Shown: in pieces, positions 34,742 through 63,529 of the stretch | Position numbering within the stretch: position 1 is the stretch's first letter | How the letters are laid out: every line of letters starts with the position of its first letter | Source: Peronospora farinosa | Lineage: Eukaryota; Oomycota; Peronosporomycetes; Peronosporales; Peronosporaceae | Reading direction: 5' to 3' | DNA length: 64,000 bases | NCBI GenBank assembly: GCA_947646735.1 | Contig: CANTFK010000976.1 | Span: 141,542-205,541 of the forward strand | Position numbers and translations under genes: made by a program | The notes under the pieces: model-generated | Databases searched by the model: none | Told to the model about the DNA's origin: nothing | Seen by the model: only the letters and a program-made list of their open reading frames with translations

Positions 34742-35060
34742 AAATCTGATTGGGTTATTATCAATGCAGAATGCAAAATCAGCCAATGCAAAACTAGCCA
34801 ATAATGTAAAATTAGCTAATCCAAATGCCGGAGAAGGAGCACTACGGACGGACGGACTGACAGGCGGACACAATTCGTTATCTTCTATATAATAAAAGAA
34901 TTGTGTCCGTCCGTCCGTCCGTCTGTTCGTCCGTCCGTCCGTCTGTCCGTCCGTCCGTAGTGCTCCTTTTCCGGCATTCGGATTGGCTAATTTTGCATTA
35001 TTGTCTAATTTTGCATTGGCTGATATTGTATTTTGCATAGATAATATTATAAGCTGATTT
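34742..35060. repeat. About 320 bp imperfect palindrome (fold-back/MITE-like) with (CCGT)n tract
   Basis: The left arm (from 34742) and right arm (to 35060) are imperfect reverse complements. Left ATCAGCCAATGCAAAACTAG pairs with right-arm reverse complement ATCAGCCAATGCAAAATTAG, and left CGGAGAAGGAGCACTACGG pairs with CGGAAAAGGAGCACTACGG. The centre is GGACACAATTC, then about 22 bp of AT-rich loop, then GAATTGTGTCC (about 34867-34908). The right arm carries a longer (CCGT/CTGT)n tract at 34908-34970 than the left, so it has expanded on one side. There is no ORF inside. It could be a fold-back element or a rearranged Helitron terminus. Confidence 0.8.
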
Positions 35061-36238
35061 TTCGAATATATACTGTAGTAAAATTGCCTACGTCCATACT
35101 AATTGCGTAGAACATGCGTACCTATCGGTCGGAACGACTGGCAGATCTAAGTTCGGTTTGACGAATTTTGTAATATTAATGCGAGCAGGTCTCCGTTACA
35201 GAATTCAGCTTCGAAAGGCGGCAAAAAGCTGTTAAGACACCCTTTAATATAATTAAACTATCTTTTATTTAATTAAAGAAAAGTATTTATCCGTTTGCCA
35301 TCGTGCTTTTTCTAGGAATTCGAATTGACTGATTTTGCGTTTTATATTCATTCATATTTGCTAATATGCATTGAAAAACGTATTTGATCGATATATTTGG
35401 ATGTCTGAAATATATAACGAATCTTATTTGTGAAATCTGATAGGGTGAAGTAAGATTATTTGGAGTAAAAAGTACCTATGAGCCTGGGGACGACGTCCCA
35501 TCGGTGGTGCAATGGTTTGCTTACCATGTATACAGGTCTGTGTAATGGGCACGGGCTCAATACCCGCTGCCTGCCAAATCGGGCATATTGGAAATTTGGG
35601 TAGTTCTCTTAGTCGAACTTTGGGCTGCTTGCGGTAAACACTTTCGAGTGCTGTCGTGTGGTAGTCGTTACTTAACCCTTGCATGAAAACGAGAGTCCGT
35701 CCCCCAAGCTTGCTTGGGTCTCACACTGAATATCTTCTTCGGAAGGTGGATGGTAGTAGTGCTATAACGGTAGAAGCCGAAGGCGTAAAGGTCCGTAATA
35801 ACGGTAGGGCCCGTGTCCCTTCAATATGACTTCGTAATAAGTGACGCAAATCGGCTTAAGCCGTGACCTCACACGGGCGCATTAGCATACCAATACGATT
35901 AATGAGGAAAAAACAAAGACCGATAAGCCAAATAGGCAGGTATAAACCAAAAGCGAATCTCCAAATCCTCTTCCTGAAAGGGTAAAGGTGTAAGGCAAAA
36001 ACCACTTGCAAAGGCCAAAAGCCAACTACCAATACCCGCAAGGGTAAAGGCTATAGTCCGAACGTCTAAATACACTTGATTACCTAAATAATATTAAAAA
36101 TGGTGTACGACCATCCTTTCATATATTTTAGGCATGTTGATTGGCCAACTTTATATTTTGCAATAACTGGTGTATGTCGCACTTTGCATTAAGATCTCTA
36201 CTAAAGATTTAAGTCCTTACGTGGTGCTACAATTAAAG
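35061..36238. other. Upstream region of the Helitron frame, AT-rich, with SINE-like repeat
   Basis: No protein-coding frame is supportable. It contains the tRNA-like head described separately. A G/C-richer segment at about 35690-36060 has short A-rich/CGG motifs (GGTAGAAGCCGAAGGCGTAA). AT-rich tracts around 35330-35380 and 36130-36170 share TGATTTTGC/TTGGCCAA-like words with the 34.7 kb palindrome. It probably includes the 5' non-coding part of the Helitron. Confidence 0.45.
35490..35600 (+). repeat. tRNA-derived SINE-like head
   Basis: TGGTGCAATGG at 35505-35515 fits the pol III A box (TRGYNNARNNGG). GGCTCAATACC at 35554-35564 fits the B box (GGTTCRANTCC) at 8 of 11 positions, about 50 bp downstream. 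No cloverleaf with paired acceptor arms is evident, so this is not a functional tRNA gene. SINEs with tRNA heads are known in Phytophthora. The body may extend to about 35700-36060, but I cannot define its end. Confidence 0.45.
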
Positions 36239-39200
36239 ATGGAAAGCCCACGGTCGCGCCGAAATCGTCTTGCCTGGGAGCGACGTTCTCGGCAGCGTGC
36301 CAAGGAGACGGAAGAACAGCGAGCCGCACTACGGCAAGAAGCGCGCCGTGCGCAACGCACCCGGCGGCGACAATATAAGAACGTGGCAGCAGAGCGCGAG
36401 CGCAACCGAGTGGCGCACGCGGCACGACGAGCCGAAATGAGCCACGAAGATGCAACGCTTGAGCGCGAGCGCAACCGAGCGAGGCAGGCGGCACGACGAG
36501 CCGAAATCAGCCACGAAGATGCAACGCTTGAGCGCGAGCGCAACCGAGTGGCGCACGCGGCACGACGAGCCGAAATGATCCACGAAGATGCAACGCTTGA
36601 GCGCGAGCGCAACCGAGTGGCGCACGCGGCACGACGAGCCGAAATGACACGCTAAGACGCAACGCTTGAGCGCGAGCGCAACCGAGCGAGGCACGCGGCA
36701 CGACGAGCCGAAATGACCCACGAAGATGCAACGCTTGAGCGCGAGCGCAACCGAGTGGCGCACGCGGCACGACGAGCCGAAATGAGCCACGAAGATGCAA
36801 CGCTTGAGCGCGAGTGCAACCGAGTGGGGCACGCGGCACGACGTACCGAAATGACCCACGAAGATGCAACGCTTGAGCGCGAGCGCAACCGAGCGAGGCA
36901 CGCGGCACGACGAGCCGAAATCAGCCACGAAGATGCAACGCTTGAGCGCGAGCGCAACCGAGCGAGGCACGCAGCACGACGAGCCGAAATCAGCCACGAA
37001 GATGCAACGCTTGAGCGCGAGCGCAACCGAGTGGCGCACGCGGAACGAAGAGCCGAAATGAGCCACGAAGATGCAACGCTTGAACGCGAGCGCGACCGAG
37101 TGGCGCACGCGGCACGACGAGCCGAAATGAGCCACGAAGATGCAACGCTTGAGCGCGAGCGCAACCGAGCGAAGCACGCGGCACGACGAGCCGAAATGAG
37201 CCACGAAGATGCAACGCTTGAGCGCGAGCGCAACCGCGTGGCGCACGCGGCACGACGAGCCGAAATGAGCCACGAAGATGCAACGCTTGAGCGCGAGCGC
37301 AACCGAGTGGCGCACGCGGCACGAAGAGCCGAAATGAGCCACGAAGATGCAACGCTTGAGCGCGAGCGCAACCGAGTGGCGCACGCGGCACGACGAGCCG
37401 AAATGAGCCACGAAGATGCAACGCTTGAGCGCGAGCGCAACCGAGCGAAGCACGCGGCACGACGAGCCGAAATGAGCCACGAAGATGCAACGCTTGAGCG
37501 CGAGCGCAACCGAGCGAGGCACGCGGCACGACGAGCCGAAATGAGCCACGAAGATGCAACGCTTGAGCGCGAGCGCAACCGAGCGAGGCACGCGGAACGA
37601 CGAGCCGAAATGAGCCACGAAGATGCAACGCTTGAGCGCGAGCGCAACCGAGCGAAGCACGCGGCACGACGAGCCGAAATGAGCCACGAAGATGCAACGC
37701 TTGAGCGCGAGCGCAACCGAGCGAAGCACGCGGCACGACGAGCCGAAATGAGCCACGAAGATGCAACGCTTGAGAGCGAGCGCAACCGAGTGGCGCACGC
37801 GGCACGACGAGCCGAAATGACCCACGAAGATGCAACGCTTGAGCGCGAGCGCAACCGAGCGAGGCACGCGGCACGACGAGCCGAAATGAGCCACGAAGAT
37901 GCAACGCTTGAGCGCGAGCGCAACCGAGCGAGGCACGCGGCACGACGAGCCGAAATGAGCCACGAAGATGCAACGCTTGAGCGCGAGCGCAACCGAGCGA
38001 GGCACGCGGCACGACGAGCCGAAATGACCCACGAAGATGCAACGCTTGAGCGCGAGCGCAACCGAGCGAGCGCACGCGGCACGACGAGCCGAAATGAGCC
38101 ACGAAGATGCAACGCTTGAGCGCGAGCGCAACCGAGCGAGGCACGCGGCACGACGAGCCGAAATGAGCCACGAAGATGCAACGCTTGAGCGCGAGCGCAA
38201 CCGAGCGAGGCACGCGGCACGACGAGCCGAAATGAGCCACGAAGATGCAACGCTTGAGCGCGAGCGCAACCGAGCGAGGCACGCGGCACGACGAGCCGAA
38301 ATCAGCCACGAAGATGCAACGCTTGAGCGCGAGCGCAACCGAGCGAGGCACGCGGCACGACGAGCCGAAATGAGCCACGAAGATGCAACGCTTGAGAGCG
38401 AGCGCAACCGAGTGGCGCACGCGGCACGACGAGCCGAAATGACCCACGAAGATGCAACGCTTGAGCGCGAGGCAACCGAGCGAAGCACGCGGCACGACGA
38501 GCCGAAATGAGCCACGAAGATGCAACGCTTGAGCGCGAGCGCAACCGAGCGAGGCACGCGGCACGACGAGCCGAAATGAGCCACGAAGATGCAACGCTTG
38601 AGCGCGAGCGCAACCGAGCGAGGCACGCGGCACGACGAGCCGAAATGACCCACGAAGATGCAACGCTTGAGCGCGAGCGCAACCGAGCGAGGCACGCGGC
38701 ACGACGAGCCGAAATCAGCCACGAAGATGCAACGCTTGAGCGCGAGCGCAACCGAGTGGCGCACGCGGCACGACGAGCCGAAATGAGCCACGAAGATGCA
38801 ACGCTTGAGCGCGAGCGCAACCGAGTGAGCGCACGCGGCACGACGAGCCGAAATGACCCACGAAGATGCAACGCTTGAGCGCGAGCGCAACCGAGCGAGG
38901 CACGCGGCACGACGAGCCGAAATGAGCCACGAAGATGCAACGCTTGAGCGCGAGCGCAACCGAGTGGCGCACGCGGCACGACGAGCCGAAATGACCACGA
39001 AGATGCAACGCTTGAGCGCGAGCGCAACCGAGCGAGGCACGCGGCACGACGAGCCGAAATGAGCCACGAAGATGCAACGCTTGAGCGCGAGCGCAACCGA
39101 GTGGCGCACGCGGCACGACGAGCCGAAATGAGCCACGAAGATGCAACGCTTGAGCGCGAGCGCAACCGAGCGAGGCACGCGGCACGACGAGCCGAAATGA

Positions 39201-42200
39201 CCCACGAAGATGCAACGCTTGAGCGCGAGCGCAACCGAGTGGCGCACGCGGCACGACGAGCCGAAATCAGCCACGAAGATGCAACGCTTGAGCGCGAGCG
39301 CAACCGAGCGAGGCGCGCGGCACGACGTACCGAAATGACCCACGAAGATGCAACGCTTGAGCGCGAGCGCAACCGAGCGAGGCACGCGGCACGACGAGCC
39401 GAAATGACCCACGAAGATGCAACGCTTGAGCGCGAGCGCAACCGAGCGAGGCACGCAGCACGACGAGCCGAAATCAGCCACGAAGATGCAACGCTTGAGC
39501 GCGAGCGCAACCGCGTGGCGCACGCGGCACGACGAGCCGAAATGACCCACGAAGATGCAACGCTTGAGAGCGAGCGCAACCGAGTGGCGCACGCGGCACG
39601 ACGAGCCGAAATGACCCACGAAGATGCAACGCTTGAGCGCGAGTGCAACCGAGCGAAGCACGCGGCACGACGAGCCGAAATGAGCCACGAAGATGCAACG
39701 CTTGAGCGCGAGCGCAACCGCGTGGCGCACGCGGCACGACGAGCCGAAATGAGCCACGAAGATGCAACGCTTGAGCGCGAGCGCAACCGAGCGAGGCACG
39801 CGGCACGACGAGCCGAAATGACCCACGAAGATGCAACGCTTGAGCGCGAGCGCAACCGAGCGAGGCACGCGGCACGACGAGCCGAAATCAGCCACGAAGA
39901 TGCAACGCTTGAGCGCGAGCGCAACCGCGTGGAGCACGCGGCACGACGAGCCGAAATGAGCCACGAAGATGCAACGCTTGAGAGCGAGCGCAACCGAGTG
40001 GCGCACGCGGCACGACGAGCCGAAATGACCCACGAAGATGCAACGCTTGAGCGCAAGTGCAACCGAGCGAGGCACGCGGCACGACGAGCCGAAATGAGCC
40101 ACGAAGATGCAACGCTTGAGAGCGAGCGCAACCGAGCGAGGCACGCGGCACGACGAGCCGAAATGAGCCACGAAGATGCAACGCTTGAGCGCGAGCGCAA
40201 CCGAGCGAGGCACGCGGCACGACGAGCCGAAATGAGCCACGAAGATGCAACGCTTGAGCGCGAGCGCAACCGAGTGGCGCACGCGGCACGACGAGACGAA
40301 ATGAGCCACGAAGATGCAACGCTTGAGCGCGAGCGCAACCGAGTGGCGCACGCGGCACGACGAGCCGAAATGAGCCACGAAGATGCAACGCTTGAGCGCG
40401 AGCGCAACCGAGCGAGCGCACGCGGCACGACGAGCCGAAATGAGCCACGAAGATGCAACGCTTGAGCGCGAGTGCAACCGAGCGAAGCACGCGGCACGAC
40501 GAGCCGAAATGAGCCACGAAGATGCAACGCTTGAGCGCGAGCGCAACCGCGTGGCGCACGCGGCACGACGAGCCGAAATGAGCCACGAAGATGCAACGCT
40601 TGAGCGCGAGCGCAACCGAGTGGCGCACGCGGCACGACGAGCCGAAATGAGCCACGAAGATGCAACGCTTGAGAGCGAGCGCAACCGAGTGGCGCACGCG
40701 GCACGACGAGCCGAAATGAGCCACGAAGATGCAACGCTTGAGCGCGAGCGCAACCGAGTGGCGCACGCGGCACGACGAGCCGAAATGACCCACGAAGATG
40801 CAACGCTTGAGCGCGAGTGCAACCGAGCGAAGCACGCGGCACGACGAGCTGAAATGAGCCACGAAGATGCAACGCTTGAGCGCGAGCGCAACCGCGTGGC
40901 GCACGCGGCACGACGAGCCGAAATGACCCACGAAGATGCAACGCTTGAGCGCGAGTGCAACCGAGCGAAGCACGCGGCACGACGAGCCGAAATGACCCAC
41001 GAAGATGCAACGCTTGAGCGCGAGCGCAACCGAGCGAGGCACGCGGCACGACGAGCCGAAATGAGCCACGAAGATGCAACGCTTGAGCGCGAGCGCAACC
41101 GCGTGGCGCACGCGGCACGACGAGCCGAAATGACCCACGAAGATGCAACGCTTGAGCGCGAGTGCAACCGAGCGAAGCACGCGGCACGACGAGCCGAAAT
41201 CAGCCACGAAGATGCAACGCTTGAGCGCGAGCGCAACCGAGTGGCGCACGCGGCACGACGAGCCGAAATGAGCCACGAAGATGCAACGCTTGAGCGCGAG
41301 CGCAACCGAGTGGCGCACGCGGCACGACGAGCCGAAATGAGCCACGAAGATGCAACGCTTGAGAGCGAGCGCAACCGAGTGGCGCACGCGGCACGACGAG
41401 CCGAAATGAGCCACGAAGATGCAACGCTTGAGCGCGAGTGCAACCGAGCGAAGCACGCGGCACGACGAGCCGAAATGAGCCACGAAGATGCAACGCTTGA
41501 GCGCGAGCGCAACCGAGTGGCGCACGCGGCACGACGAGCCGAAATGAGCCACGAAGATGCAACGCTTGAGCGCGAGCGCAACCGAGTGGCGCACGCGGCA
41601 CGACGAGCCGAAATGACACGCTAAGACGCAACGCTTGAGAGCGAGCGCAACCGAGCGAGGCACGCGGCACGACGAGCCGAAATGACCCACGAAGATGCAA
41701 CGCTTGAGCGCGAGCGCAACCGAGTGGCGCACGCGGCACGACGAGCCGAAATGACCCACGAAGATGCAACGCTTGAGCGCGAGCGCAACCGAGTGGCGCA
41801 CGCGGCACGACGAGCCGAAATCAGCCACGAAGATGCAACGCTTGAGAGCGAGCGCAACCGAGCGAGGCGCGCGGCACGACGTACCGAAATGACCCACGAA
41901 GATGCAACGCTTGAGCGCGAGCGCAACCGAGCGAGGCACGCGGCACGACGAGCCGAAATCAGCCACGAAGATGCAACGCTTGAGCGCGAGCGCAACCGAG
42001 CGAGGCACGCAGCACGACGAGCCGAAATCAGCCACGAAGATGCAACGCTTGAGCGCGAGCGCAACCGCGTGGCGCACGCGGCACGACGAGCCGAAATGAC
42101 CCACGAAGATGCAACGCTTGAGAGCGAGCGCAACCGAGTGGCGCACGCGGCACGACGAGCCGAAATGACCCACGAAGATGCAACGCTTGAGCGCGAGTGC

Positions 42201-45200
42201 AACCGAGCGAAGCACGCGGCACGACGAGCCGAAATGAGCCACGAAGATGCAACGCTTGAGCGCGAGCGCAACCGCGTGGCGCACGCGGCACGACGAGACA
42301 AAATGAGCCACGAAGATGCAACGCTTGAGCGCGAGCGCAACCGAGCGAGGCGCGCGGCACGACGTACCGAAATGACCCACGAAGATGCAACGCTTGAGAG
42401 CGAGCACAACCGAGCGAGGCACGCGGCACGACGAGCCGAAATGAGCCACGAAGATGCAACGCTTGAGCGCGAGCGCAACCGAGTGGCGCACGCGGCACGA
42501 CGAGCCGAAATGACCCACGAAGATGCAACGCTTGAGCGCGAGCGCAACCGAGTGGCGCACGCGGCACGACGAGCCGAAATGACCCACGAAGATGCAACGC
42601 TTGAGCGCAAGTGCAACCGAGCGAGGCACGCGGCACGACGAGCCGAAATGACCCACGAAGATGCAACGCTTGAGCGCGAGCGCAACCGAGCGAGGCACGC
42701 GGCACGACGAGCCGAAATGAGCCACGAAGATGCAACGCTTGAGAGCGAGCGCAACCGAGTGACGCACGCGGCACGACGAGCCGAAATGACCCACGAAGAT
42801 GCAACGCTTGAGCGCGAGTGCAACCGAGCGAAGCACGCGGCACGACGAGCCGAAATGAGCCACGAAGATGCAACGCTTGAGCGCGAGCGCAACCGCGTGG
42901 CGCACGCGGCACGACGAGACGAAATGAGCCACGAAGATGCAACGCTTGAGCGCGAGCGCAACCGAGCGAGGCGCGCGGCACGACGTACCGAAATGACCCA
43001 CGAAGATGCAACGCTTGAGAGCGAGCACAACCGAGCGAGGCACGCGGCACGACGAGCCGAAATCAGCCACGAAGATGCAACGCTTGAGCGCGAGCGCAAC
43101 CGCGTGGCGCACGCGGCACGACGAGCCGAAATGACCCACGAAGATGCAACGCTTGAGCGCGAGCGCAACCGAGTGGCGCACGCGGCACGACGAGCCGAAA
43201 TGACCCACGAAGATGCAACGCTTGAGCGCAAGCGCAACCGAGCGAGGCACGCGGCACGACGAGCCGAAATGACCCACGAAGATGCAACGCTTGAGCGCGA
43301 GCGCAACCGAGCGAGGCACGCGGCACGACGAGCCGAAATGAGCCACGAAGATGCAACGCTTGAGAGCGAGCGCAACCGAGTGGCGCACGCGGCACGACGA
43401 GCCGAAATCAGCCACGAAGATGCAACGCTTGAGCGCGAGTGCAACCGAGCGAAGCACGCGGCACGACGAGCCGAAATGACCCACGAAGATGCAACGCTTG
43501 AGCGCGAGCGCAACCGCGTGGCGCACGCGGCACGACGAGACGAAATGAGCCACGAAGATGCAACGCTTGAGCGCGAGCGCAACCGAGCGAGGCGCGCGGC
43601 ACGACGTAGCCGAAATGACCCACGAAGATGCAACGCTTGAGCGCGAGCGCAACCGAGCGAGGCACGCGGCACGACGAGCCGAAATGAGCCACGAAGATGC
43701 AACGCTTGAGCGCGAGCGCAACCGCGTGGCGCACGCGGCACGACGAGCCGAAATGACCCACGAAGATGCAACGCTTGAGCGCGAGCGCAACCGAGTGGCG
43801 CACGCGGCACGACGAGCCGAAATGACCCACGAAGATGCAACGCTTGAGCGCAAGTGCAACCGAGCGAGGCACGCGGCACGACGAGCCGAAATGACCCACG
43901 AAGATGCAACGCTTGAGAGCGAGCGCAACCGAGTGGCGCACGCGGCACGACGAGCCGAAATGACCCACGAAGATGCAACGCTTGAGCGCAAGTGCAACCG
44001 AGCGAGGCACGCGGCACGACGAGCCGAAATCAGCCACGAAGATGCAACGCTTGAGCGCGAGCGCAACCGAGCGAGGCACGCAGCACGACGAGCCGAAATC
44101 AGCCACGAAGATGCAACGCTTGAGCGCGAGCGCAACCGCGTGGCGCACGCGGCACGACGAGCCGAAATGACCCACGAAGATGCAACGCTTGAGAGCGAGC
44201 GCAACCGAGTGGCGCACGCGGCACGACGAGCCGAAATGACCCACGAAGATGCAACGCTTGAGCGCGAGTGCAACCGAGCGAAGCACGCGGCACGACGAGC
44301 CGAAATGAGCCACGAAGATGCAACGCTTGAGCGCGAGCGCAACCGCGTGGCGCACGCGGCACGACGAGACAAAATGAGCCACGAAGATGCAACGCTTGAG
44401 CGCGAGCGCAACCGAGCGAGGCGCGCGGCACGACGTACCGAAATGACCCACGAAGATGCAACGCTTGAGAGCGAGCACTACCGAGCGAGGCACGCGGCAC
44501 GACGAGCCGAAATCAGCCACGAAGATGCAACGCTTGAGCGCGAGCGCAACCGCGTGGCGCACGCGGCACGACGAGCCGAAATGACCCACGAAGATGCAAC
44601 GCTTGAGCGCGAGCGCAACCGAGTGGCGCACGCGGCACGACGAGCCGAAATGACCCACGAAGATGCAACGCTTGAGCGCAAGTGCAACCGAGCGAGGCAC
44701 GCGGCACGACGAGCCGAAATGACCCACGAAGATGCAACGCTTGAGCGCGAGCGCAACCGAGCGAGGCACGCGGCACGACGAGCCGAAATGAGCCACGAAG
44801 ATGCAACGCTTGAGAGCGAGCGCAACCGAGTGGCGCACGCGGCACGACGAGCCGAAATGAGCCACGAAGATGCAACGCTTGAGCGCGAGCGCAACCGCGT
44901 GGCGCACGCGGCACGACGAGCCGAAATGACCCACGAAGATGCAACGCTTGAGAGCGAGCGCAACCGAGTGGCGCACGCGGCACGACGAGCCGAAATGACC
45001 CACGAAGATGCAACGCTTGAGCGCGAGTGCAACCGAGCGAAGCACGCGGCACGACGAGCCGAAATGAGCCACGAAGATGCAACGCTTGAGCGCGAGCGCA
45101 ACCGCGTGGCGCACGCGGCACGACGAGACAAAATGAGCCACGAAGATGCAACGCTTGAGCGCGAGCGCAACCGAGCGAGGCGCGCGGCACGACGTACCGA

Positions 45201-46306
45201 AATGACCCACGAAGATGCAACGCTTGAGCGCGAGCGCAACCGAGCGAGGCACGCGGCACGACGAGCCGAAATCAGCCACGAAGATGCAACGCTTGAGCGC
45301 GAGCGCAACCGCGTGGCGCACGCGGCACGACGAGCCGAAATGACCCACGAAGATGCAACGCTTGAGCGCGAGCGCAACCGAGTGGCGCACGCGGCACGAC
45401 GAGCCGAAATGACCCACGAAGATGCAACGCTTGAGCGCGAGCGCAACCGAGCGAGGCACGCGGCACGACGAGCCGAAATGACCCACGAAGATGCAACGCT
45501 TGAGCGCGAGCGCAACCGAGCGAGGCACGCAGCACGACGAGCCGAAATCAGCCACGAAGATGCAGCGCTTGAGCGCGAGCGCAACCGAGCGAGGCACGCG
45601 GCACGACGAGCCGAAATGACCCACGAAGATGCAACGCTTGAGAGCGAGCGCAACCGAGTGGCGCACGCGGCACGACGAGCCGAAATGACCCACGAAGATG
45701 CAACGCTTGAGCGCGAGTGCAACCGAGCGAAGCACGCGGCACGACGAGCCGAAATCAGCCACGAAGATGCAACGCTTGAGCGCGAGCGCAACCGCGTGGC
45801 GCACGCGGCACGACGAGACAAAATGACCCACGAAGATGCAACGCTTGAGCGCGAGTGCAACCGAGCGAAGCACGCGGCACGACGAGCCGAAATCAGCCAC
45901 GAAGATGCAACGCTTGAGCGCGAGCGCAACCGAGTGGCGCACGCGGCACGACGAGCCGAAATCAGCCACGAAGATGCAACGCTTGAGCGCGAGCGCAACC
46001 GCGTGGCGCACGCGGCACGACGAGCCGAAATGACCCACGAAGATGCAACGCTTGAGAGCGAGCGCAACCGAGTGGCGCACGCGGCACGACGAGCCGAAAT
46101 GACCCACGAAGATGCAACGCTTGAGCGCGAGTGCAACCGAGCGAAGCACGCGGCACGACGAGCCGAAATCAGCCACGAAGATGCAACGCTTGAGCGCGAG
46201 CGCAACCGCGTGGCGCACGCGGCACGACGAGACAAAATGAGCCACGAAGATGCAACGCTTGAGCGCGAGCGCAACCGAGCGAGGCACGCGGCACGACGTA
46301 GCCGAA
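36239..46306 (+). pseudogene. Proximal, disrupted part of the Helitron Rep-helicase frame
   Basis: ATG 36239 starts a 66-codon unique basic head (MESPRSRRNRLAWERRSRQR; then RRQYKNVAAERERNR), followed by 23-residue units. The frame is closed by TAA at 36653-36655 inside an altered unit. It resumes in the same frame, then is shifted by single-base insertions near 38070, 38826, 40416, 43608 and 46300 and deletions near 38470 and 38990. The same TAA-bearing unit recurs at 41622-41624. The net of these seven 1-bp changes is +3, so the start codon and the Helitron domain lie in the same frame. As it stands, translation from 36239 yields only 139 codons. Whether the breaks are biological or assembly errors is discussed in the findings; the copied ones argue for biology. 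Confidence 0.8.
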
Positions 46307-49300
46307 ATGACCCACGAAGATGCAACGCTTGAGCGCGAGCGCAACCGAGCGAGGCACGCGGCACGACGAGCCGAAATGACCCACGAAGATGCAACGCTTG
46401 AGCGCGAGTGCAACCGAGCGAGGCACGCGGCACGACGAGCCGAAATCAGCCACGAAGATGCAACGCTTGAGCGCGAGCGCAACCGCGTGGCGCACGCGGC
46501 ACGACGAGCCGAAATGACCCACGAAGATGCAACGCTTGAGCGCGAGTGCAACCGAGCGAAGCACGCGGCACGACGAGCCGAAATCAGCCACGAAGATGCA
46601 ACGCTTGAGCGCGAGCGCAACCGCGTGGCGCACGCGGCACGACGAGACAAAATGAGCCACGAAGATGCAACGCTTGAGCGCGAGCGCAACCGAGCGAGGC
46701 GCGCGGCACGACGAGCCGAAATGACCCACGAAGATGCAACGCTTGAGCGCGAGCGCAACCGAGCGAGGCACGCGGCACGACGAGCCGAAATGAGCCACGA
46801 AGATGCAACGCTTGAGCGCGAGCGCAACCGAGCGAGGCACGCGGCACGACGAGCCGAAATGACCCACGAAGATGCAACGCTTGAGCGCGAGCGCAACCGA
46901 GCGAGGCACGCGGCACGACGAGCCGAAATGAGCCACGAAGATGCAACGCTTGAGCGCGAGCGCAACCTCGTGGCGCACGCGGCACGACGAGCCGAAATGA
47001 GCCACGAAGATGCAACGCTTGAGCGCGAGCGCAACCGAGCGAGGCACGCGGCACGACGAGCCGAAATCAGCCACGAAGATGCAGCGCTTGAGCGCGAGCG
47101 CAACCGAGCGAGGCACGCGGCACGACGAGCCGAAATGACCCACGAAGATGCAACGCTTGAGCGCGAGTGCAACCGAGCGAAGCACGCGGCACGACGAGCC
47201 GAAATGAGCCACGAAGATGCAACGCTTGAGCGCAAGCGCAACCGAGTGGCGCACGCGGCACGACGAGCCGAAATGACCCACGAAGATGCAACGCTTGAGC
47301 GCAAGCGCAACCGAGTGGCGCACGCGGCACGACGAGCCGAAATGACCCACGAAGATGCAACGCTTGAGCGCGAGCGCAACCGAGCGAGGCACGCGGCACG
47401 ACGAGCCGAAATGACCCACGAAGATGCAACGCTTGAGCGCGAGCGCAACCGAGTGGCGCACGCGGCACGACGAGCCGAAATGACCCACGAAGATGCAACG
47501 CTTGAGCGCGAGTGCAACCGAGCGAAGCACGCGGCACGACGAGCCGAAATGAGCCACGAAGATGCAACGCTTGAGCGCAAGTGCAACCGAGTGGCGCACG
47601 CGGCACGACGAGCCGAAATGACCCACGAAGATGCAACGCTTGAGCGCAAGTGCAACCGAGCGAGGCACGCGGCACGACGAGCCGAAATGACCCACGAAGA
47701 TGCAACGCTTGAGCGCGAGCGCAACCGAGCGAGGCACGCGGCACGACGAGCCGAAATGACCCACGAAGATGCAACGCTTGAGAGCGAGCGCAACCGAGCG
47801 AGGCGCGCGGCACGACGAGCCGAAATGACCCACGAAGATGCAACGCTTGAGCGCGAGCGCAACCGAGCGAGGCACGCGGCACGACGAGCCGAAATGAGCC
47901 ACGAAGATGCAACGCTTGAGAGCGAGCGCAACCGAGCGAGGCGCGCGGCACGACGAGCTGAAATGAGCCACGAAGATGCAACGCTTGAGAGCGAGCGCAA
48001 CCGAGTGGCGCACGCGGCACGACGAGCCGAAATGAGCCACGAAGATGCAACGCTTGAGAGCGAGCGCGACCGAGTGGCGCACGCGGCACGACGAGCCGAA
48101 ATGACCCACGAAGATGCAACGCTTGAGCGCGAGCGCAACCGAGCGAGGCACGCGGCACGACGAGCCGAAATGAGCCACGAAGATGCAACGCTTGAGAGCG
48201 AGCGCAACCGCGTGGCGCACGCGGCACGACGAGCTGAAATGAGCCACGAAGATGCAACGCTTGAGAGCGAGCGCAACCGAGTGGCGCACGCGGCACGACG
48301 AGCCGAAATGAGCCACGAAGATGCAACGCTTGAGAGCGAGCGCGACCGAGTGGCGCACGCGGCACGACGAGCCGAAATGACCCACGAAGATGCAACGCTT
48401 GAGCGCGAGTGCAACCGAGCGAGGCGCGCGGCACGACGAGACGAAATGACCCACGAAGATGCAACGCTTGAGCGCGAGTGCAACCGAGCGAAGCACGCGG
48501 CACGACGAGCTGAAATGACCCACGAAGATGCAACGCTTGAGCGCGAGCGCAACCGAGCGAGGCACGCGGCACGACGAGCCGAAATGACCCACGAAGATGC
48601 AACGCTTGAGCGCGAGCGCAACCGCGTGGCGCACGCGGCACGACGAGCCGAAATCAGCCACGAAGATGCAACGCTTGAGCGCGAGCGCAACCGAGCGAGG
48701 CACGCAGCACGACGAGCCGAAATCAGCCACGAAGATGCAGCGCTTGAGCGCAACCGAGCGAGGCACGCGGCACGACGAGCCGAAATGACCCACGAAGATG
48801 CAACGCTTGAGCGCGAGCGCAACCGAGCGAGGCACGCGGCACGACGAGCCGAAATGACCCACGAAGATGCAACGCTTGAGCGCGAGCGCAACCGAGTGGC
48901 GCACGCGGCACGACGAGCCGAAATGAGCCACGAAGATGCAACGCTTGAGCGCGAGCGCAACCGCGTGGCGCACGCGGCACGACGAGCCGAAATGAGCCAC
49001 GAAGATGCAACGCTTGAGCGCGAGCGCAACCGAGCGAGGCACGCAGCACGACGAGCCGAAATCAGCCACGAAGATGCAGCGCTTGAGCGCGAGCGCAACC
49101 GAGCGAGGCACGCGGCACGACGAGCCGAAATGACCCACGAAGATGCAACGCTTGAGCGCGAGTGCAACCGAGCGAAGCACGCGGCACGACGAGCCGAAAT
49201 GACCCACGAAGATGCAACGCTTGAGCGCGAGCGCAACCGAGCGAGGCACGCGGCACGACGAGCCGAAATCAGCCACGAAGATGCAACGCTTGAGCGCGAG

Positions 49301-52300: not shown

Positions 52301-55300
52301 GAAATGACCCACGAAGATGCAACGCTTGAGCGCGAGCGCAACCGCGTGGCGCACGCGGCACGACGAGCCGAAATGACCCACGAAGATGCAACGCTTGAGC
52401 GCGAGCGCAACCGCGTGGCGCACGCGGCACGACGAGCTGAAATGACCCACGAAGATGCAACGCTTGAGAGCGAGCGCAACCGAGCGAGGCACGCGGCACG
52501 ACGAGCCGAAATGACCCACGAAGATGCAACGCTTGAGCGCGAGTGCAACCGCGTGGCGCACGCGGCACGACGAGACGAAATGACCCACGAAGATGCAACG
52601 CTTGAGAGCGAGCGCAACCGAGCGAGGCACGCGGCACGACGAGCCGAAATGACCCACGAAGATGCAACGCTTGAGCGCGAGTGCAACCGCGTGGCGCACG
52701 CGGCACGACGAGACGAAATGACCCACGAAGATGCAACGTTTGAGAGCGAGCGCAACCGAGCGAGGCACGCGGCACGACGAGCCGAAATGACCCACGAAGA
52801 TGCAACGCTTGAGCGCGAGCGCAATCGAGTGGCGCACGCGGCACGACGAGCCAAAATGACCCACGAAGATGCAACGCTTGAGCGCGAGTGCAACCGCGTG
52901 GCGCACGCGGCACGACGAGCCGAAATGACCCACGAAGATGCAACGTTTGAGCGCGAGCGCAACCGAGTGGCGCACGCGGCACGACGAGCCGAAATGACCC
53001 ACGAAGATGCAACGCTTGAGAGCGAGCGCAACCGAGTGGCGCACGCGGCACGACGAGCCGAAATGACCCACGAAGATGCAACGCTTGAGCGCGAGCGCAA
53101 CCGAGCGAGGCACGCGGCACGACGAGCCGAAATGACCCACGAAGATGCAACGCTTGAGCGCGAGCGCAACCGAGTGGCGCACGCGGCACGACGAGCCGAA
53201 ATGACCCACGAAGATGCAACGCTTGAGCGCGAGCGCAACCGAGCGAGGCACGCGGCACGACGAGCCGAAATGACCCACGAAGATGCAACGCTTGAGCGCG
53301 AGCGCAACCGCGTGGCGCACGCGGCACGACGAGACGAAATGACCCACGAAGATGCAACGCTTGAGAGCGAGCGCAACCGAGTGGCGCACGCGGCACGACG
53401 AGCCGAAATGACCCACGAAGATGCAACGCTTGAGCGCGAGCGCAACCGCGTGGCGCACGCGGCACGACGAGACGAAATGACCCACGAAGATGCAACGCTT
53501 GAGAGCGAGCGCAACCGAGCGAGGCACGCGGCACGACGAGCCGAAATGACCCACGAAGATGCAACGCTTGAGCGCGAGCGCAATCGAGTGGCGCACGCGG
53601 CACGACGAGCCGAAATGACCCACGAAGATGCAACGCTTGAGCGCGAGTGCAACCGCGTGGCGCACGCGGCACGACGAGACGAAATGACCCACGAAGATGC
53701 AACGTTTGAGAGCGAGCGCAACCGAGCGAGGCACGCGGCACGACGAGCCGAAATGACCCACGAAGATGCAACGCTTGAGCGCGAGCGCAACCGAGTGGCG
53801 CACGCGGCACGACGAGCCGAAATGACCCACGAAGATGCAACGCTTGAGCGCGAGCGCAACCGAGCGAGGCACGCGGCACGACGAGCCGAAATGACCCACG
53901 AAGATGCAACGCTTGAGCGCGAGCGCAACCGAGTGGCGCACGCGGCACGACGAGCCGAAATGACCCACGAAGATGCAACGCTTGAGCGCGAGCGCAACCG
54001 AGCGAGGCACGCGGCACGACGAGCCGAAATGACCCACGAAGATGCAACGCTTGAGCGCGAGCGCAACCGAGTGGCGCACGCGGCACGACGAGACGAAATG
54101 ACCCACGAAGATGCAACGCTTGAGAGCGAGCGCAACCGAGTGGCGCACGCGGCACGACGAGCCGAAATGACCCACGAAGATGCAACGCTTGAGCGCGAGC
54201 GCAACCGCGTGGCGCACGCGGCACGACGAGCTGAAATGACCCACGAAGATGCAACGCTTGAGAGCGAGCGCAACCGAGCGAGGCACGCGGCACGACGAGC
54301 CGAAATGACCCACGAAGATGCAACGCTTGAGCGCGAGTGCAACCGCGTGGCGCACGCGGCACGACGAGCCAAAATGACCCACGAAGATGCAACGCTTGAG
54401 CGCGAGTGCAACCGCGTGGCGCACGCGGCACGACGAGCCGAAATGACCCACGAAGATGCAACGTTTGAGAGCGAGCGCAACCGAGTGGCGCACGCGGCAC
54501 GACGAGCCGAAATGACCCACGAAGATGCAACGCTTGAGCGCGAGCGCAACCGAGCGAGGCACGCGGCACGACGAGCCGAAATCAGCCACGAAGATGCAAC
54601 GCTTGAGAGCGAGCGCAACCGAGTGGCGCACGCGGCACGACGAGCCGAAATGAGCCACGAAGATGCAACGCTTGAGCGCGAGCGCAATCGAGTGGCGCAC
54701 GCGGCACGACGAGCCGAAATGACCCACGAAGATGCAACGCTTGAGCGCGAGTGCAACCGCGTGGCGCACGCGGCACGACGAGACGAAATGACCCACGAAG
54801 ATGCAACGTTTGAGAGCGAGCGCAACCGAGCGAGGCACGCGGCACGACGAGCCGAAATGACCCACGAAGATGCAACGCTTGAGCGCGAGCGCAACCGAGT
54901 GGCGCACGCGGCACGACGAGCCGAAATGACCCACGAAGATGCAACGCTTGAGCGCGAGCGCAACCGAGCGAGGCACGCGGCACGACGAGCCGAAATGACC
55001 CACGAAGATGCAACGCTTGAGCGCGAGCGCAACCGCGTGGCGCACGCGGCACGACGAGACGAAATGACCCACGAAGATGCAACGCTTGAGAGCGAGCGCA
55101 ACCGAGTGGCGCACGCGGCACGACGAGCCGAAATGACCCACGAAGATGCAACGCTTGAGCGCGAGCGCAACCGCGTGGCGCACGCGGCACGACGAGCTGA
55201 AATGACCCACGAAGATGCAACGCTTGAGAGCGAGCGCAACCGAGCGAGGCACGCGGCACGACGAGCCGAAATGACCCACGAAGATGCAACGCTTGAGCGC

Positions 55301-58300
55301 GAGTGCAACCGCGTGGCGCACGCGGCACGACGAGACGAAATGACCCACGAAGATGCAACGTTTGAGAGCGAGCGCAACCGAGTGAGGCACGCGGCACGAC
55401 GAGCCGAAATGACCCACGAAGATGCAACGCTTGAGCGCGAGCGCAATCGAGTGGCGCACGCGGCACGACGAGCCAAAATGACCCACGAAGATGCAACGCT
55501 TGAGCGCGAGTGCAACCGCGTGGCGCACGCGGCACGACGAGCCGAAATGACCCACGAAGATGCAACGTTTGAGAGCGAGCGCAACCGAGTGGCGCACGCG
55601 GCACGACGAGCCGAAATGACCCACGAAGATGCAACGCTTGAGCGCGAGCGCAACCGAGCGAGGCACGCGGCACGACGAGCCGAAATCAGCCACGAAGATG
55701 CAACGCTTGAGAGCGAGCGCAACCGAGTGGCGCACGCGGCACGACGAGCCGAAATGAGCCACGAAGATGCAACGCTTGAGCGCGAGTGCAACCGAGCGAA
55801 GCACGCGGCACGACGATCCGAAATGACCCACGAAGATGCAACGCTTGAGCGCGAGTGCAACCGAGCGAAGCACGCGGCACGACGATCCGAAATGACCCAC
55901 GAAGATGCAACGCTTGAGCGCGAGCGCAACCGAGTGGCGCACGCGGCACGACGAGCCGAAATGACCCACGAAGATGCAACGCTTGAGCGCGAGCGCAACC
56001 GCGTGGCGCACGCGGCACGACGAGCTGAAATGACCCACGAAGATGCAACGCTTGAGAGCGAGCGCAACCGAGCGAGGCACGCGGCACGACGAGCCGAAAT
56101 GACCCACGAAGATGCAACGCTTGAGCGCGAGTGCAACCGCGTGGCGCACGCGGCACGACGAGACGAAATGACCCACGAAGATGCAACGTTTGAGAGCGAG
56201 CGCAACCGAGCGAGGCACGCGGCACGACGAGCCGAAATGACCCACGAAGATGCAACGCTTGAGCGCGAGCGCAATCGAGTGGCGCACGCGGCACGACGAG
56301 CCAAAATGACCCACGAAGATGCAACGCTTGAGCGCGAGTGCAACCGCGTGGCGCACGCGGCACGACGAGCCGAAATGACCCACGAAGATGCAACGTTTGA
56401 GAGCGAGCGCAACCGAGTGGCGCACGCGGCACGACGAGCCGAAATGACCCACGAAGATGCAACGCTTGAGCGCGAGCGCAACCGAGCGAGGCACGCGGCA
56501 CGACGAGCCGAAATCAGCCACGAAGATGCAACGCTTGAGCGCGAGCGCAACCGTGTGGCGCACGCGGCACGACGAGACGAAATGACCCACGAAGATGCAA
56601 CGCTTGAGCGCGAGTGCAACCGAGCGAAGCACGCGGCACGACGAGCCGAAATGACCCACGAAGATGCAACGCTTGAGCGCGAGCGCAACCGCGTGGCGCA
56701 CGCGGCACGACGAGCCGAAATGACCCACGAAGATGCAACGCTTGAGCGCGAGCGCAACCGCGTGGCGCACGCGGCACGACGAGCTGAAATGACCCACGAA
56801 GATGCAACGCTTGAGAGCGAGCGCAACCGAGCGAGGCACGCGGCACGACGAGCCGAAATGACCCACGAAGATGCAACGCTTGAGCGCGAGTGCAACCGCG
56901 TGGCGCACGCGGCACGACGAGACGAAATGACCCACGAAGATGCAACGTTTGAGAGCGAGCGCAACCGAGCGAGGCACGCGGCACGACGAGCCGAAATGAC
57001 CCACGAAGATGCAACGCTTGAGCGCGAGCGCAATCGAGTGGCGCACGCGGCACGACGAGCCGAAATGACCCACGAAGATGCAACGCTTGAGCGCGAGTGC
57101 AACCGCGTGGCGCACGCGGCACGACGAGCCGAAATGAGCCACGAAGATGCAACGCTTGAGAGCGAGCGCAACCGAGTGGCGCACGCGGCACGACGAGCCG
57201 AAATGACCCACGAAGATGCAACGTTTGAGAGTGAGCGCAACCGAGTGGCGCACGCGGCACGACGAGCCGAAATGACCCACGAAGATGCAACGCTTGAGCG
57301 CGAGCGCAACCGAGCGAGGCACGCGGCACGACGAGCCGAAATCAGCCACGAAGATGCAACGCTTGAGCGCGAGCGCAACCGCGTGGCGCACGCGGCACGA
57401 CGAGCTGAAATGACCCACGAAGATGCAACGCTTGAGAGCGAGCGCAACCGAGCGAGGCACGCGGCACGACGAGCCGAAATGACCCACGAAGATGCAACGC
57501 TTGAGCGCGAGTGCAACCGCGTGGCGCACGCGGCACGACGAGACGAAATGACCCACGAAGATGCAACGTTTGAGAGCGAGCGCAACCGAGCGAGGCACGC
57601 GGCACGACGAGCCGAAATGACCCACGAAGATGCAACGCTTGAGCGCGAGCGCAATCGAGTGGCGCACGCGGCACGACGAGCCGAAATGACCCACGAAGAT
57701 GCAACGCTTGAGCGCGAGTGCAACCGCGTGGCGCACGCGGCACGACGAGCCGAAATGACCCACGAAGATGCAACGTTTGAGAGCGAGCGCAACCGAGTGG
57801 CGCACGCGGCACGACGAGCCGAAATGACCCACGAAGATGCAACGCTTGAGCGCGAGCGCAACCGAGCGAGGCACGCGGCACGACGAGCCGAAATCAGCCA
57901 CGAAGATGCAACGCTTGAGCGCGAGCGCAACCGTGTGGCGCACGCGGCACGACGAGACGAAATGACCCACGAAGATGCAACGCTTGAGCGCGAGTGCAAC
58001 CGAGCGAAGCACGCGGCACGACGAGCCGAAATGACCCACGAAGATGCAACGCTTGAGCGCGAGCGCTACCGCGTGGCGCACGCGGCACGACGAGCCGAAA
58101 TGACCCACGAAGATGCAACGCTTGAGAGCGAGCGCAACCGAGTGGCGCACGCGGCACGACGAGCCGAAATGAGCCACGAAGATGCAACGCTTGAGCGCGA
58201 GTGCAACCGAGCGAAGCACGCGGCACGACGATCCGAAATGACCCACGAAGATGCAACGCTTGAGCGCGAGCGCAACCGAGTGGCGCACGCGGCACGACGA

Positions 58301-61300
58301 GACGAAATGACCCACGAAGATGCAACGCTTGAGAGCGAGCGCAACCGAGTGGCGCACGCGGCACGACGAGCCGAAATGACCCACGAAGATGCAACGCTTG
58401 AGCGCGAGCGCAACCGCGTGGCGCACGCGGCACGACGAGCCGAAATGACCCACGAAGATGCAACGCTTGAGAGCGAGCGCAACCGAGTGGCGCACGCGGC
58501 ACGACGAGCCGAAATGACCCACGAAGATGCAACGCTTGAGCGCGAGTGCAACCGAGCGAACCACGCGGCACGACGAGCCGAAATGACCCACGAAGATGCA
58601 ACGCTTGAGCGCGAGCGCAACCGAGCGAAGCACGCGGCACGACGAGCCGAAATGACCCACGAAGATGCAACGCTTGAGAGCGAGCGCAACCGAGTGGCGC
58701 ACGCGGCACGACGAGACGAAATGACCCACGAAGATGCAACGCTTGAGCGCGAGCGCAACCGAGTGGCGCACGCGGCACGACGAGCCGAAATGACCCACGA
58801 AGATGCAACGCTTGAGCGCGAGCGCTACCGCGTGGCGCACGCGGCACGACGAGCTGAAATGACCCACGAAGATGCAACGCTTGAGAGCGAGCGCAACCGA
58901 GTGGCGCACGCGGCACGACGAGCCGAAATGAGCCACGAAGATGCAACGCTTGAGCGCGAGTGCAACCGAGCGAAGCACGCGGCACGACGATCCGAAATGA
59001 CCCACGAAGATGCAACGCTTGAGCGCGAGTGCAACCGAGCGAAGCACGCGGCACGACGAGCCGAAATGAGCCACGAAGATGCAACGCTTGAGCGCAAGCG
59101 CGACCGAGTGGCGCACGCGGCACGACGAGACGAAATGACCCACGAAGATGCAACGCTTGAGAGCGAGCGCAACCGAGTGGCGCACGCGTCACGACGAGCC
59201 GAAATGAGCCACGAAGATGCAACGCTTGAGCGCGAGCGCTACCGCGTGGCGCACGCGGCACGACGAGCTGAAATGACCCACGAAGATGCAACGCTTGAGA
59301 GCGAGCGCAACCGAGTGGCGCACGCGGCACGACGAGCCGAAATGACCCACGAAGATGCAACGCTTGAGCGCGAGTGCAACCGAGCGAAGCACGCGGCACG
59401 ACGAGCCGAAATGACCCACGAAGATGCAACGCTTGAGAGCGAGCGCAACCGAGCGAGGCACGCAGCACGACGAGCCGAAATCAGCCACGAAGATGCAACG
59501 CTTGAGCGCAAGCGCGACCGAGTGGCGCACGCGGCACGAAGAGACGAAATGAGCCACGAAGATGCAACGCTTGAGAGCGAGCGCAACCGAGTGGCGCACG
59601 CGGCACGACGAGACGAAATGACCCACGAAGATGCAACGCTTGAGAGCGAGCGCAACCGAGTGGCGCACGCGTCACGACGAGCCGAAATGACCCACGAAGA
59701 TGCAACGCTTGAGCGCGAGCGCTACCGCGTGGCGCACGCGGCACGACGAGCTGAAATGACCCACGAAGATGCAACGCTTGAGAGCGAGCGCAACCGAGTG
59801 GCGCACGCGGCACGACGAGCCGAAATGAGCCACGAAGATGCAACGCTTGAGCGCGAGTGCAACCGAGCGAAGCACGCGGCACGACGATCCGAAATGACCC
59901 ACGAAGATGCAACGCTTGAGCGCGAGTGCAACCGAGCGAAGCACGCGGCACGACGAGCCGAAATGAGCCACGAAGATGCAACGCTTGAGCGCGAGCGCTA
60001 CCGCGTGGCGCTCGCGGCACGACGAGCCGAAATGAGCCACGAAGATGCAACGCTTGAGCGCGAGCGCAACCGAGCGAAGCACGCGGCACGACGATCCGAA
60101 ATGACCCACGAAGATGCAACGCTTGAGCGCGAGTGCAACCGTGTGGCGCACGCGGCACGACGAGCCGAAATGACCCACGAAGATGCAACGTTTGAGAGCG
60201 AGCGCAACCGAGTGGCGCACGCGGCACGACGAGCCGAAATGACCCACGAAGATGCAACGCTTGAGCGCGAGCGCAACCGAGCGAGGCACGCGGCACGACG
60301 AGCCGAAATGAGCCACGAAGATGCAACGCTTGAGCGCGAGTGCAACCGAGTGGCGCACGCGGCACGACGAGCCGAAATGACCCACGAAGATGCAACGCTT
60401 GAGCGCGAGCGCAACCGAGCGAAGCACGCGGCACGACGAGCCGAAATGACCCACGAAGATGCAACGCTTGAGCACAAGCGCGACCGAGTGGCGCACGCGG
60501 CACGACGAGACGAAATGACCCACGAAGATGCAACGCTTGAGCGCGAGCGCAACCGAGCGAGGCACGCGGCACGACGAGCCGAAATGACCCACGAAGATGC
60601 AACGCTTGAGCGCGAGCGCAACCGCGTGGCGCACGCGGCACGACGAGCCGAAATGAGCCACGAAGATGCAACGCTTGAGCGCGAGCGCAACCGCGTGGCG
60701 CACGCGGCACGACGAGCCGAAATGAGCCACGAAGATGCAACGCTTGAGCGCGAGCGCAACCGAGCGAGGCACGCAGCACGACGAGCCGAAATCAGCCACG
60801 AAGATGCAGCGCTTGAGCGCGAGCGCAACCGAGCGAGGCACGCGGCACGACGAGCCGAAATGACCCACGAAGATGCAACGCTTGAGCGCGAGTGCAACCG
60901 AGCGAAGCACGCGGCACGACGAGCCGAAATGACCCACGAAGATGCAACGCTTGAGCGCGAGCGCAACCGAGCGAGGCACGCGGCACGACGAGCCGAAATC
61001 AGCCACGAAGATGCAACGCTTGAGCGCGAGCGCAACCGTGTGGCGCACGCGGCACGACGAGACGAAATGACCCACGAAGATGCAACGCTTGAGCGCGAGC
61101 GCAACCGAGCGAGGCACGCGGCACGACGAGCCGAAATCAGCCACGAAGATGCAACGCTTGAGCGCGAGCGCAACCGTGTGGCGCACGCGGCACGACGAGA
61201 CGAAATGACCCACGAAGATGCAACGCTTGAGCGCGAGCGCAACCGAGCGAGGCGCGCGGCACGACGAGCCGAAATGACCCACGAAGATGCAACGCTTGAG

Positions 61301-63529
61301 CGCGAGCGCAACCGAGCGAGGCACGCGGCACGACGAGCCGAAATGACCCACGAAGATGCAACGCTTGAGCGCGAGCGCAACCGCGTGGCGCACGCGGCAC
61401 GACGAGCCGAAATGAGCCACGAAGATGCAACGCTTGAGCGCGAGCGCAACCGCGTGGCGCACGCGGCACGACGAGCCGAAATGAGCCACGAAGATGCAAC
61501 GCTTGAGCGCGAGCGCAACCGAGCGAGGCACGCAGCACGACGAGCCGAAATCAGCCACGAAGATGCAGCGCTTGAGCGCGAGCGCAACCGAGCGAGGCAC
61601 GCGGCACGACGAGCCGAAATGACCCACGAAGATGCAACGCTTGAGCGCGAGTGCAACCGAGCGAAGCACGCGGCACGACGAGCCGAAATGACCCACGAAG
61701 ATGCAACGCTTGAGCGCGAGCGCAACCGAGCGAGGCACGCGGCACGACGAGCCGAAATCAGCCACGAAGATGCAACGCTTGAGCGCGAGCGCAACCGTGT
61801 GGCGCACGCGGCACGACGAGACGAAATGACCCACGAAGATGCAACGCTTGAGCGCGAGCGCAACCGAGCGAGGCGCGCGGCACGACGAGCCGAAATGACC
61901 CACGAAGATGCAACGCTTGAGCGCGAGCGCAACCGAGCGAGGCACGCGGCACGACGAGCCGAAATGACCCACGAAGATGCAACGCTTGAGCGCGAGCGCA
62001 ACCGTGTGGCGCACGCGGCACGACGAGCCGAAATGACCCACGAAGATGCAACGCTTGAGCGCGAGTGCAACCGAGCGAAGCACGCGGCACGACGAGCCGA
62101 AATGACCCACGAAGATGCAACGCTTGAGCGCGAGTGCAACCGAGCGAAGCACGCGGCACGACGAGCCGAAATGACCCACGAAGATGCAACGCTTGAGCGC
62201 GAGCGCAACCGCGTGGCGCACGCGGCACGACGAGCCGAAATGAGCCACGAAGATGCAACGCTTGAGCGCGAGCGCAACCGCGTGGCGCACGCGGCACGAC
62301 GAGCCGAAATGACCCACGAAGATGCAACGCTTGAGCGCGAGTGCAACCGGGCCAAGCACGCGGCACGACGAGCCGAAATGACCCACGAAGATGCAACGCT
62401 TGAGCGCGAGCGCAACCGAGCGAGGCACGCGGCACGACGAGCCGAAATGAGCCACGAAGATGCAACGCTTGAGAGCGAGCGCAACCGCGTGGCGCACGCG
62501 GCACGACGAGCTGAAATCAGCCACGAAGATGCAGCGCTTGAGCGCGAGCGCAACCGAGCGAAGCACGCGGCACGACGATCCGAAATGACCCACGAAGATG
62601 CAACGCTTGAGCGCGAGCGCAACCGTGTGGCGCACGCGGCACGACGAGCCGAAATGACCCACGAAGATGCAACGCTTGAGAGCGAGCGCAACCGCGTGGC
62701 GCACGCGGCACGACGTACCGAAATGACCCACGAAGATGCAACGCTTGAGCGCGAGTGCAACCGAGCGAAGCACGCGGCACGACGATCCGAAATGACCCAC
62801 GAAGATGCAACGCTTGAGCGCGAGCGCAACCGAGTGGCGCACGCGGCACGACGAGACGAAATGACCCACAAAGATGCAACGCTTGAGAGCGAGCGCAACC
62901 GAGTGGCGCACGCGGCACGACGAGCCGAAATGACCCACGAAGATGCAACGCTTGAGCGCGAGCGCAACCGAGCGAGGCACGCGGCACGACGAGCTGAAAT
63001 GACCCACGAAGATGCAACGCTTGAGAGCGAGCGCAACCGAGTGAGGCACGCAGCACGACGAGCCGAAATCAGCCACGAAGATGCAACGCTTGAGCGCGAG
63101 CGCAACCGAGTGGCGCACGCGGCAAGACGAGACGAAATGAGCCACGAAGATGCAACGCTTGAGCGCGAGCGCAACCGAGTGGCGCACGCGGCACGACGAG
63201 CTGAAATCAGCCACGAAGATGCAACGCTTGAGCGCGAGCGCAACCGAGCGAGGCACGCGGCACGACGAGCCGAAATGACCCAGGAAGATACAACGCTTGA
63301 GAGCGAGCGCAACCGAGTGGCGCACGCGGCACGACAAGACGAAATGAGCCACGAAGATGCAACGCTTGAGCGCGAGCGCAACCGCGTGGCGCTCGCGGCA
63401 CGACGAGACGAAATGAGCCACGAAGATGCAACGCTTGAGCGCGAGCGCAACCGAGCGAGGCGCGCGGCACGACGTACCGAAATGACCCACGAAGATGCAA
63501 CGCTTGAGCGCGAGCGCAATAGAGTGGCG
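36437..63529 (+). repeat. 392 full 69-bp tandem units plus a terminal partial unit (27.1 kb minisatellite)
   Basis: The unit begins ATGACCCACGAAGATGCAAC and has 23 codons: M/I-T/S-H-E-D-A-T-L-E-R/S-E-R/C-N-R-A/V-R/K/A-H/R-A-A-R-R-A/D/S/T-E. The first ATG is at 36437 and the last at 63482. The distance of 27,045 bp equals 392 x 69 minus 3, exactly explained by five 1-bp insertions, two 1-bp deletions and one 6-bp deletion. A degenerate leading unit (36389-36436) and a trailing 16-codon unit (63482-63529) flank the array. HEDATLE and AARR are nearly invariant, while about eight codon sites carry two to four alternative states in mosaic combinations. Higher-order blocks of 8-16 units are visible. 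The minus strand of the consensus unit has no stop codon in any frame. Confidence 0.97.

Follow-up and report, generated by a model that had tools for sequence, protein, structure and literature searches.

Helitrons begin with a 5'-TC inserted beside a host A, and end in a 3' hairpin that is followed by CTRR and a host T. One such element, located in a 64,000-nucleotide stretch of the Peronospora farinosa genome (assembly GCA_947646735.1, contig CANTFK010000976.1, positions 141,542 to 205,541 of the forward strand; hereafter the window), carries a tandem array of 393 units inside its transposase gene, compared with 1-8 units in eleven sister copies. Fusarium Helitrons also have the 5'-TC end (PMC5148889). 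The bat element Helraiser is an example of the canonical (RepHel) organization; in the available parts of its account (PMC4778049), the protein without its first 489 residues does not bind single-stranded DNA, and a tandem array is not mentioned. The Mothra Helitrons of rice contain blocks of tandem repeats that vary between copies, as stated in the accessible portion of PMC4683698. Repeats of 23 residues occur in silkworm FMBP-1, where four of them are present and a Glu4-Arg9 salt bridge is formed (PMC4821344). No in-gene array like that of the window appears in the titles and abstract openings among the matches listed from the literature on Helitron repeats and on oomycetes.

The window copy resembles canonical Helitrons in its 5'-TC after a host A and in the cysteine pattern of the N-terminal part of its transposase, and a sister copy provides the 3' hairpin with CTAG before T, the Helitron_like_N Rep domain and the PIF1 helicase. 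Unlike canonical elements, it has 393 in-gene units and a predicted length of around 33 kb (6.3 kb in the sister copy). Tandem repeats within the Helitron and variation from copy to copy are features shared with Mothra; those elements, however, are non-autonomous, measure 1.25-2.74 kb, and have no transposase-coding array described in the part of the account cited above. Tandem units of 23 residues upstream of Helitron_like_N are also present in three other Helitron proteins, although in far smaller numbers: about nine in P0086, four in P0072, and two in P0002 from Peronospora effusa.

The host element

The exact 5' terminus, A|TCTTCTATATAATAAAAG..., is located at 34881, where the preceding A and the initial TC agree with a Helitron end. 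The element (34881..64000, plus strand) is truncated by the end of the assembled sequence, as the contig stops exactly at window base 64000, 495 bp past the array. Sister copies share this 5' terminus, which is found at 42 places (at most two mismatches) in the genome searched (46.85 Mb in 274 contigs; the window corresponds to 141542-205541 of contig C257). By eye, the bases preceding the 5' end (window 34770-35020) form an inverted copy of the first bases of the element (AATGCCGG...GGACGGAC); the inverted bases before 34881 could be the trace of an adjacent Helitron end in inverted orientation.

The transposase leader (36239..36391, plus strand) consists of a start codon and a basic segment, MESPRSRRNRLAWERR...KETEEQRAALRQ...KNVAA in translation. 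A comparable leader is present in sister copies and in P0002, the closest oomycete-named protein. The top match, P0001, and P0003 are filed under the plant Kalanchoe fedtschenkoi and are 79% and 76% identical, respectively, to the oomycete-type Helitron of the window; they may represent downy-mildew contamination in the plant genome.

The segment behind the array (63539..64000, plus strand) belongs to the N-terminal part of the Helitron transposase; it is conserved, carries the cysteine pattern CxxC ... CC, and is recognized by its similarity to sister copy L011. Three of its four cysteines are invariant and the fourth is conserved at 90% or more across 19 aligned proteins. In sister copies, this segment sits upstream of the start of Helitron_like_N. 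The original prediction had placed that domain in the window itself, which is not borne out: the Pfam scan of 63002-64000 detects neither Helitron_like_N nor any other domain in the tail segment, and a genome search for Helitron_like_N finds 30 places, none on the window's contig.

L011 (contig C178, minus strand) spans 6340 bp from its 5' terminus to its 3' end, the latter formed by the hairpin CCGTCG-GTA-CGACGG and CTAG|T. It has Helitron_like_N (E-value 1.2e-64) and the PIF1 helicase (E-value 3.3e-77) in two further open frames. The window copy is 95.8% identical to L011 over 1475 bp upstream of the array and 98.5% identical over the 471 bp downstream of it. The latter value assigns the sequence behind the array to the Helitron transposase, in agreement with the original prediction that an extreme minisatellite lies within the transposase gene of a Helitron, and with both flanks matching so closely, array length is the main difference seen between the two copies. 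Judging from L011, about 4.0 kb of the element (4008 bp or so) would be missing past the contig end, and the whole element would measure approximately 33.1 kb.

The 3' end type of L011 is found at 188 places in the genome (at most three mismatches). At C205:132739-139987, C37:193520-198908 and C83:166378-172930, such ends (a hairpin with CTAG) follow one another at intervals of about 2.2 kb, all in one orientation, which looks like head-to-tail Helitron arrays.

Extent of the array and unit number in sister copies

Tandem Repeats Finder reports a single array (36392-63532, period 69, 393.4 copies, 93% matches). Anchor splitting resolves 36392..63505 (plus strand) into 393 units of 69 bp, or 23 codons, with the consensus ERERNRVAHAARRAEMTHEDATL: 385 units are 69 bp long, five 70 bp, two 68 bp, and one 63 bp. 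The 385 units of 69 bp comprise 105 different DNA sequences. The array is followed by a terminal half-unit, ERERNRVAHQQ (63506..63538, plus strand), which is common to the sister copies. Since the distance from the leader to this half-unit equals 392.96 x 69, the array is continuous, and the 392 uninterrupted units originally predicted were right to within one. An exact 19-base unit probe has 166 forward and three reverse matches genome-wide, with 157 of the forward ones in the window; outside it, the matches listed include at least one on each of C116 and C183, as well as the three in reverse orientation on C178.

Units were counted by one rule, based on the distance that separates the leader (KNVAA) and the terminal half-unit, or the matching marks of a second subfamily. 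Among 39 places found, the more decayed ones were left out of the unit counts; 13 sister loci were measured and 11 were countable, as the broken L021 and L037 gave no count. The six sister copies of the same subfamily contain 5, 4, 8, 2, 1, and 1 units, and the five copies of the second subfamily contain 4, 1, 1, 6, and 2. By the same rule the window copy has 393, which makes it roughly a 50-fold outlier in unit number. As the sister copies carry 1-8 units, the transposase has long possessed the 23-residue unit; P0002, from another species of the genus, contains two.

Reading frame

The array had been described as reading in frame into the transposase, which is correct for its last 249 units, up to the contig end, and incorrect for the first 144. 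The frame opened by the ATG at 36239 ends in unit 4 (36599-36667) at an in-frame TAA (36653..36655, plus strand). The same stop-bearing unit is seen again as unit 76, at 41568; this second occurrence of the nonsense unit indicates that the stop was copied along. Insertions or deletions (indels) of one base are present in units 25, 31, 36, 38, 59, 105, and 144 (starting at 38048, 38463, 38807, 38946, 40394, 43569, and 46261, respectively; whole stretch 38048..46330, plus strand). As these seven indels sum to +3, the frame is restored past unit 144. The only unit of 63 bp, at 48746, preserves the frame.

A single open frame of 5917 codons (46250..64000, plus strand) begins off the unit frame, joins it at the indel of unit 144, encompasses the 249 in-frame units and the Helitron segment, and is still open at the contig end. 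Only here do array and Helitron segment share one frame. An intact coding minisatellite, with the whole array and the protein in one frame, is ruled out by the stop at 36653 and the seven frameshift units. The full array is therefore unlikely to be translated from the natural start codon, and any long protein made would begin inside the array.

The minus strand over the array is likewise open for 4863 codons (window 43408-57999), so openness alone constitutes weak evidence of coding in such an even array. The antisense frame also advises caution against calling genes from open frames in even repeats.

Growth of the array and selection

Units do not follow one another at random. Runs of identical units that recur at a second place reach a length of 8, as compared with a maximum of 4 when the order is shuffled 100 times, and unit identity peaks at spacings of 9 and 11 units (0.086 and 0.099, versus a shuffled maximum of 0.068). 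Identical runs of at least four units (n = 25) are mostly close together: 14 lie at most 30 units apart, 9 at 31-100, and 2 at more than 100. Long identical blocks are absent; even the two most similar stretches of 20 units have 27 differences in 1380 sites. The non-random order and the short distances between identical blocks suggest that blocks of some 9-20 units were duplicated time and again, with unequal exchange or template switching among the units as the probable process. Of the slipped replication envisaged in the original prediction, a form driven by secondary structure of a strand finds no support, since in the folding of two consensus units neither DNA strand performs better than shuffles (z = 0.41 and 0.38).

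The array variants comprise 35 amino-acid-changing, one stop, and 14 silent types, the linked sites of the codon 8 variants being counted singly. A random change of the consensus would give 68-71% changing, 3-4% stop, and 26-28% silent. The observed ratio of changing-or-stop to silent types (36:14, or 2.6 to 1) thus stands beside an expected 2.6-2.9 to 1; across 4000 random unit pairs, the ratio of changing to silent polymorphism (pN/pS) is 1.78. The corresponding ratio of substitution rates (dN/dS) in the 471-bp tail is 0.35 with L011, 0.33 with L014, 0.50 with L015, 0.45 with L016, 0.56 with L022, and 0.40 with L024, while the helicase part gives 0.34 between L011 and L010 (comparisons with the second subfamily were excluded, as their dS is saturated). 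The substitution pattern of the array looks neutral, beside a constrained gene body.

Likeness of the unit to STPR

The unit resembles the score-and-three peptide repeat (STPR, PF21107) of FMBP-1. An STPR consensus, used as the query for PDB and protein searches, retrieved FMBP-1 structures (5d23, 5d2q, and 5d2s; E-value 4.6e-6) and 42 proteins, some of which seem to join STPR to Helitron sequence. The link to Helitrons is given by the source name for P0133, by DUF6570 beside STPR for P0164 (a domain that presumably goes together with Helitrons), and by eye only for P0124 and P0151. A profile was built from 75 FMBP-1-like stretches of the 42 proteins. When 120 other Helitron proteins were scored over their first 350 residues, only P0086, P0072, P0002, and P0095 reached 10 bits (none of 2400 shuffled sequences did), so the likeness is absent from the majority of them; P0086, with its approximately nine units, exceeds the Pfam STPR cut-off (40.3 versus 27 bits). 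The Helraiser N terminus has no significant score with the profile, and no candidate in a genome search for STPR passed a first look.

For the repeat of the window copy itself the likeness is less well supported. The array end and the L011 N terminus each have a score that none of 300 whole-sequence shuffles equals. When five consensus units in a row are scored, 7 of 1000 shuffled-unit arrays do as well by full score and 9 by best domain (26 and 10 of 1000 without bias correction), and the second-subfamily unit is not significant against the profile (249 and 188 of 1000). When a profile of six N termini is compared by hhalign with one of 17 STPR proteins, the result is 93.4%, and the alignment passes through the leader and the first units. 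The 23-residue tandem period is kept, 385 of the 393 units being exactly 69 bp long, and within the unit Glu occupies position 4 and the helix opens with Thr/Ser; the leader contains a single E-T-E-E-Q-R motif, which is close to that of STPR. In contrast to the repeats of FMBP-1, the unit is near-neutral (net charge +0.11, K+R-D-E, with about two His besides), occurs 393 times rather than four, and has Glu in place of Arg at position 9 in the profile alignment. Both Glu4 and Arg9 are present in the leader of L011 (E-T-E-E-Q-R-A-A-R), whereas the leader of the window copy has Leu at position 9. Because the final 493 residues of the array give no PF21107 match, Arg9 is missing and the score of the consensus unit is weaker, the unit is best called STPR-like and not a member of STPR.

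An AlphaFold2 model of the last seven or so units and the tail contains a series of five helices of 21 residues, each starting 23 residues after the one before, with breaks at Met-Thr/Ser, while its first 52 residues form one unbroken helix. Mean predicted local distance difference test (pLDDT) is 73.4, with block values of 81-93 over residues 11-160, and the predicted template modelling score is 0.30; a fold comparison of the model with the PDB gave no match. Most of the 23-residue units are thus predicted to form one 21-residue helix broken at Met-Thr/Ser, in the manner of STPR. In copies with few units, the transposase is predicted to bind DNA through this segment of its N-terminal part.

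Origin of the array

The array is probably the result of a neutral runaway, at the DNA level, of a coding repeat within the transposase, brought about by duplication of multi-unit blocks without selection for a longer protein. A few-unit STPR-like repeat, old in the transposase, would have started expanding in one Helitron copy; blocks of multiple units would then have been duplicated repeatedly through unequal exchange or template switching, while a stop and frameshifts accumulated and the stop-bearing unit was copied along, with protein length not under selection. Neutral expansion also fits best among the mechanisms of the original prediction, given the neutral substitution ratio and the duplicated blocks. 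Several observations weigh against this explanation. The length of 393 units is known from the assembly alone. All seven frameshift units fall within the first 144 of 393 units, which has a chance of about 0.0009 if they are independent and about 0.007 if two look-alike pairs represent single events; the last 249 units may therefore be selectively kept open. The unit core (AHAARRAE-like) is common to the two subfamilies, which suggests longer-term constraint. Furthermore, the tail comparison with L011 comprises three silent and three changing differences, and the Rep part has dN/dS values of 0.70 and 0.57, among copies that are themselves broken.

An assembly error, with a true locus of far fewer (or more) units and a contig end that marks failed assembly by the array, is unlikely. 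The contig does stop 495 bp past the array, inside the Helitron, and the seven one-base indels are clustered in one part; a false duplication, however, would leave long identical blocks, whereas the best 20-unit pair has 27 differences in 1380 sites and the longest run is 8 units. The 9 forward and 3 reverse probe matches outside the window are too few for a second such array, and a hybrid origin of the one-base insertions from two unit variants is not above chance (exact for 3 of 5, versus 44% of random insertions). Growth as a by-product of rolling-circle transposition, through template slippage on the displaced single strand, is quite unlikely: the eleven counted sister copies would move by the same process and all have at most 8 units, and two-unit folding is no better than shuffles for either strand, even though ends of the family are numerous in the genome (42 of the 5' and 188 of the 3' type), with 3' ends recurring about every 2.2 kb at C205 and C37. 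Selected amplification, by which a very long DNA- or RNA-binding arm would benefit the transposase and the 5917-codon frame would be translated, is very doubtful. It would agree with the unbroken frame of the last 249 units, with the STPR-like unit and its predicted per-unit helices, and with the scores of sister-copy and related N termini against the STPR profile; the substitution ratio of the array is nevertheless at the neutral value, the natural start codon is cut off by the stop in unit 4, and the antisense frame is open as well. The amplified nucleic-acid-binding arm suggested by the original prediction is weakened by the net charge of merely +0.11 per unit and by the absence of a purifying signal. 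As a long shot, the Helitron transposases of this lineage might bind DNA via freely tunable STPR-type repeats, and the window copy might encode a protein of at least 5,900 residues in which at least 249 helical units constitute a near-micrometre multivalent DNA tether; if so, this giant protein would have the longest binding arm known on a transposase.

Neighbouring genes

Elsewhere in the window, a Pfam scan of eight long open frames identifies members of ordinary gene families: a PIP5K (9439-13068), a diacylglycerol kinase (20480-22552), a choline transporter (24954-25835), a FYVE/VASt protein (27125-29599), and a poly(A) polymerase (30735-32609). The remaining three frames have no Pfam match.

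Significance for Helitron transposases

Through the likeness to STPR, the N-terminal region of certain Helitron transposases, which Helraiser requires for binding single-stranded DNA, is connected with a repeat family whose structures have been solved; the literature search found no paper combining Helitron with STPR, or an STPR domain with a transposon. Sister transposons in a single genome form a natural series of 1, 2, 4, 5, 6, 8, and 393 units of one repeat. This series permits a direct question: what limits repeats within genes, and when do they escape?

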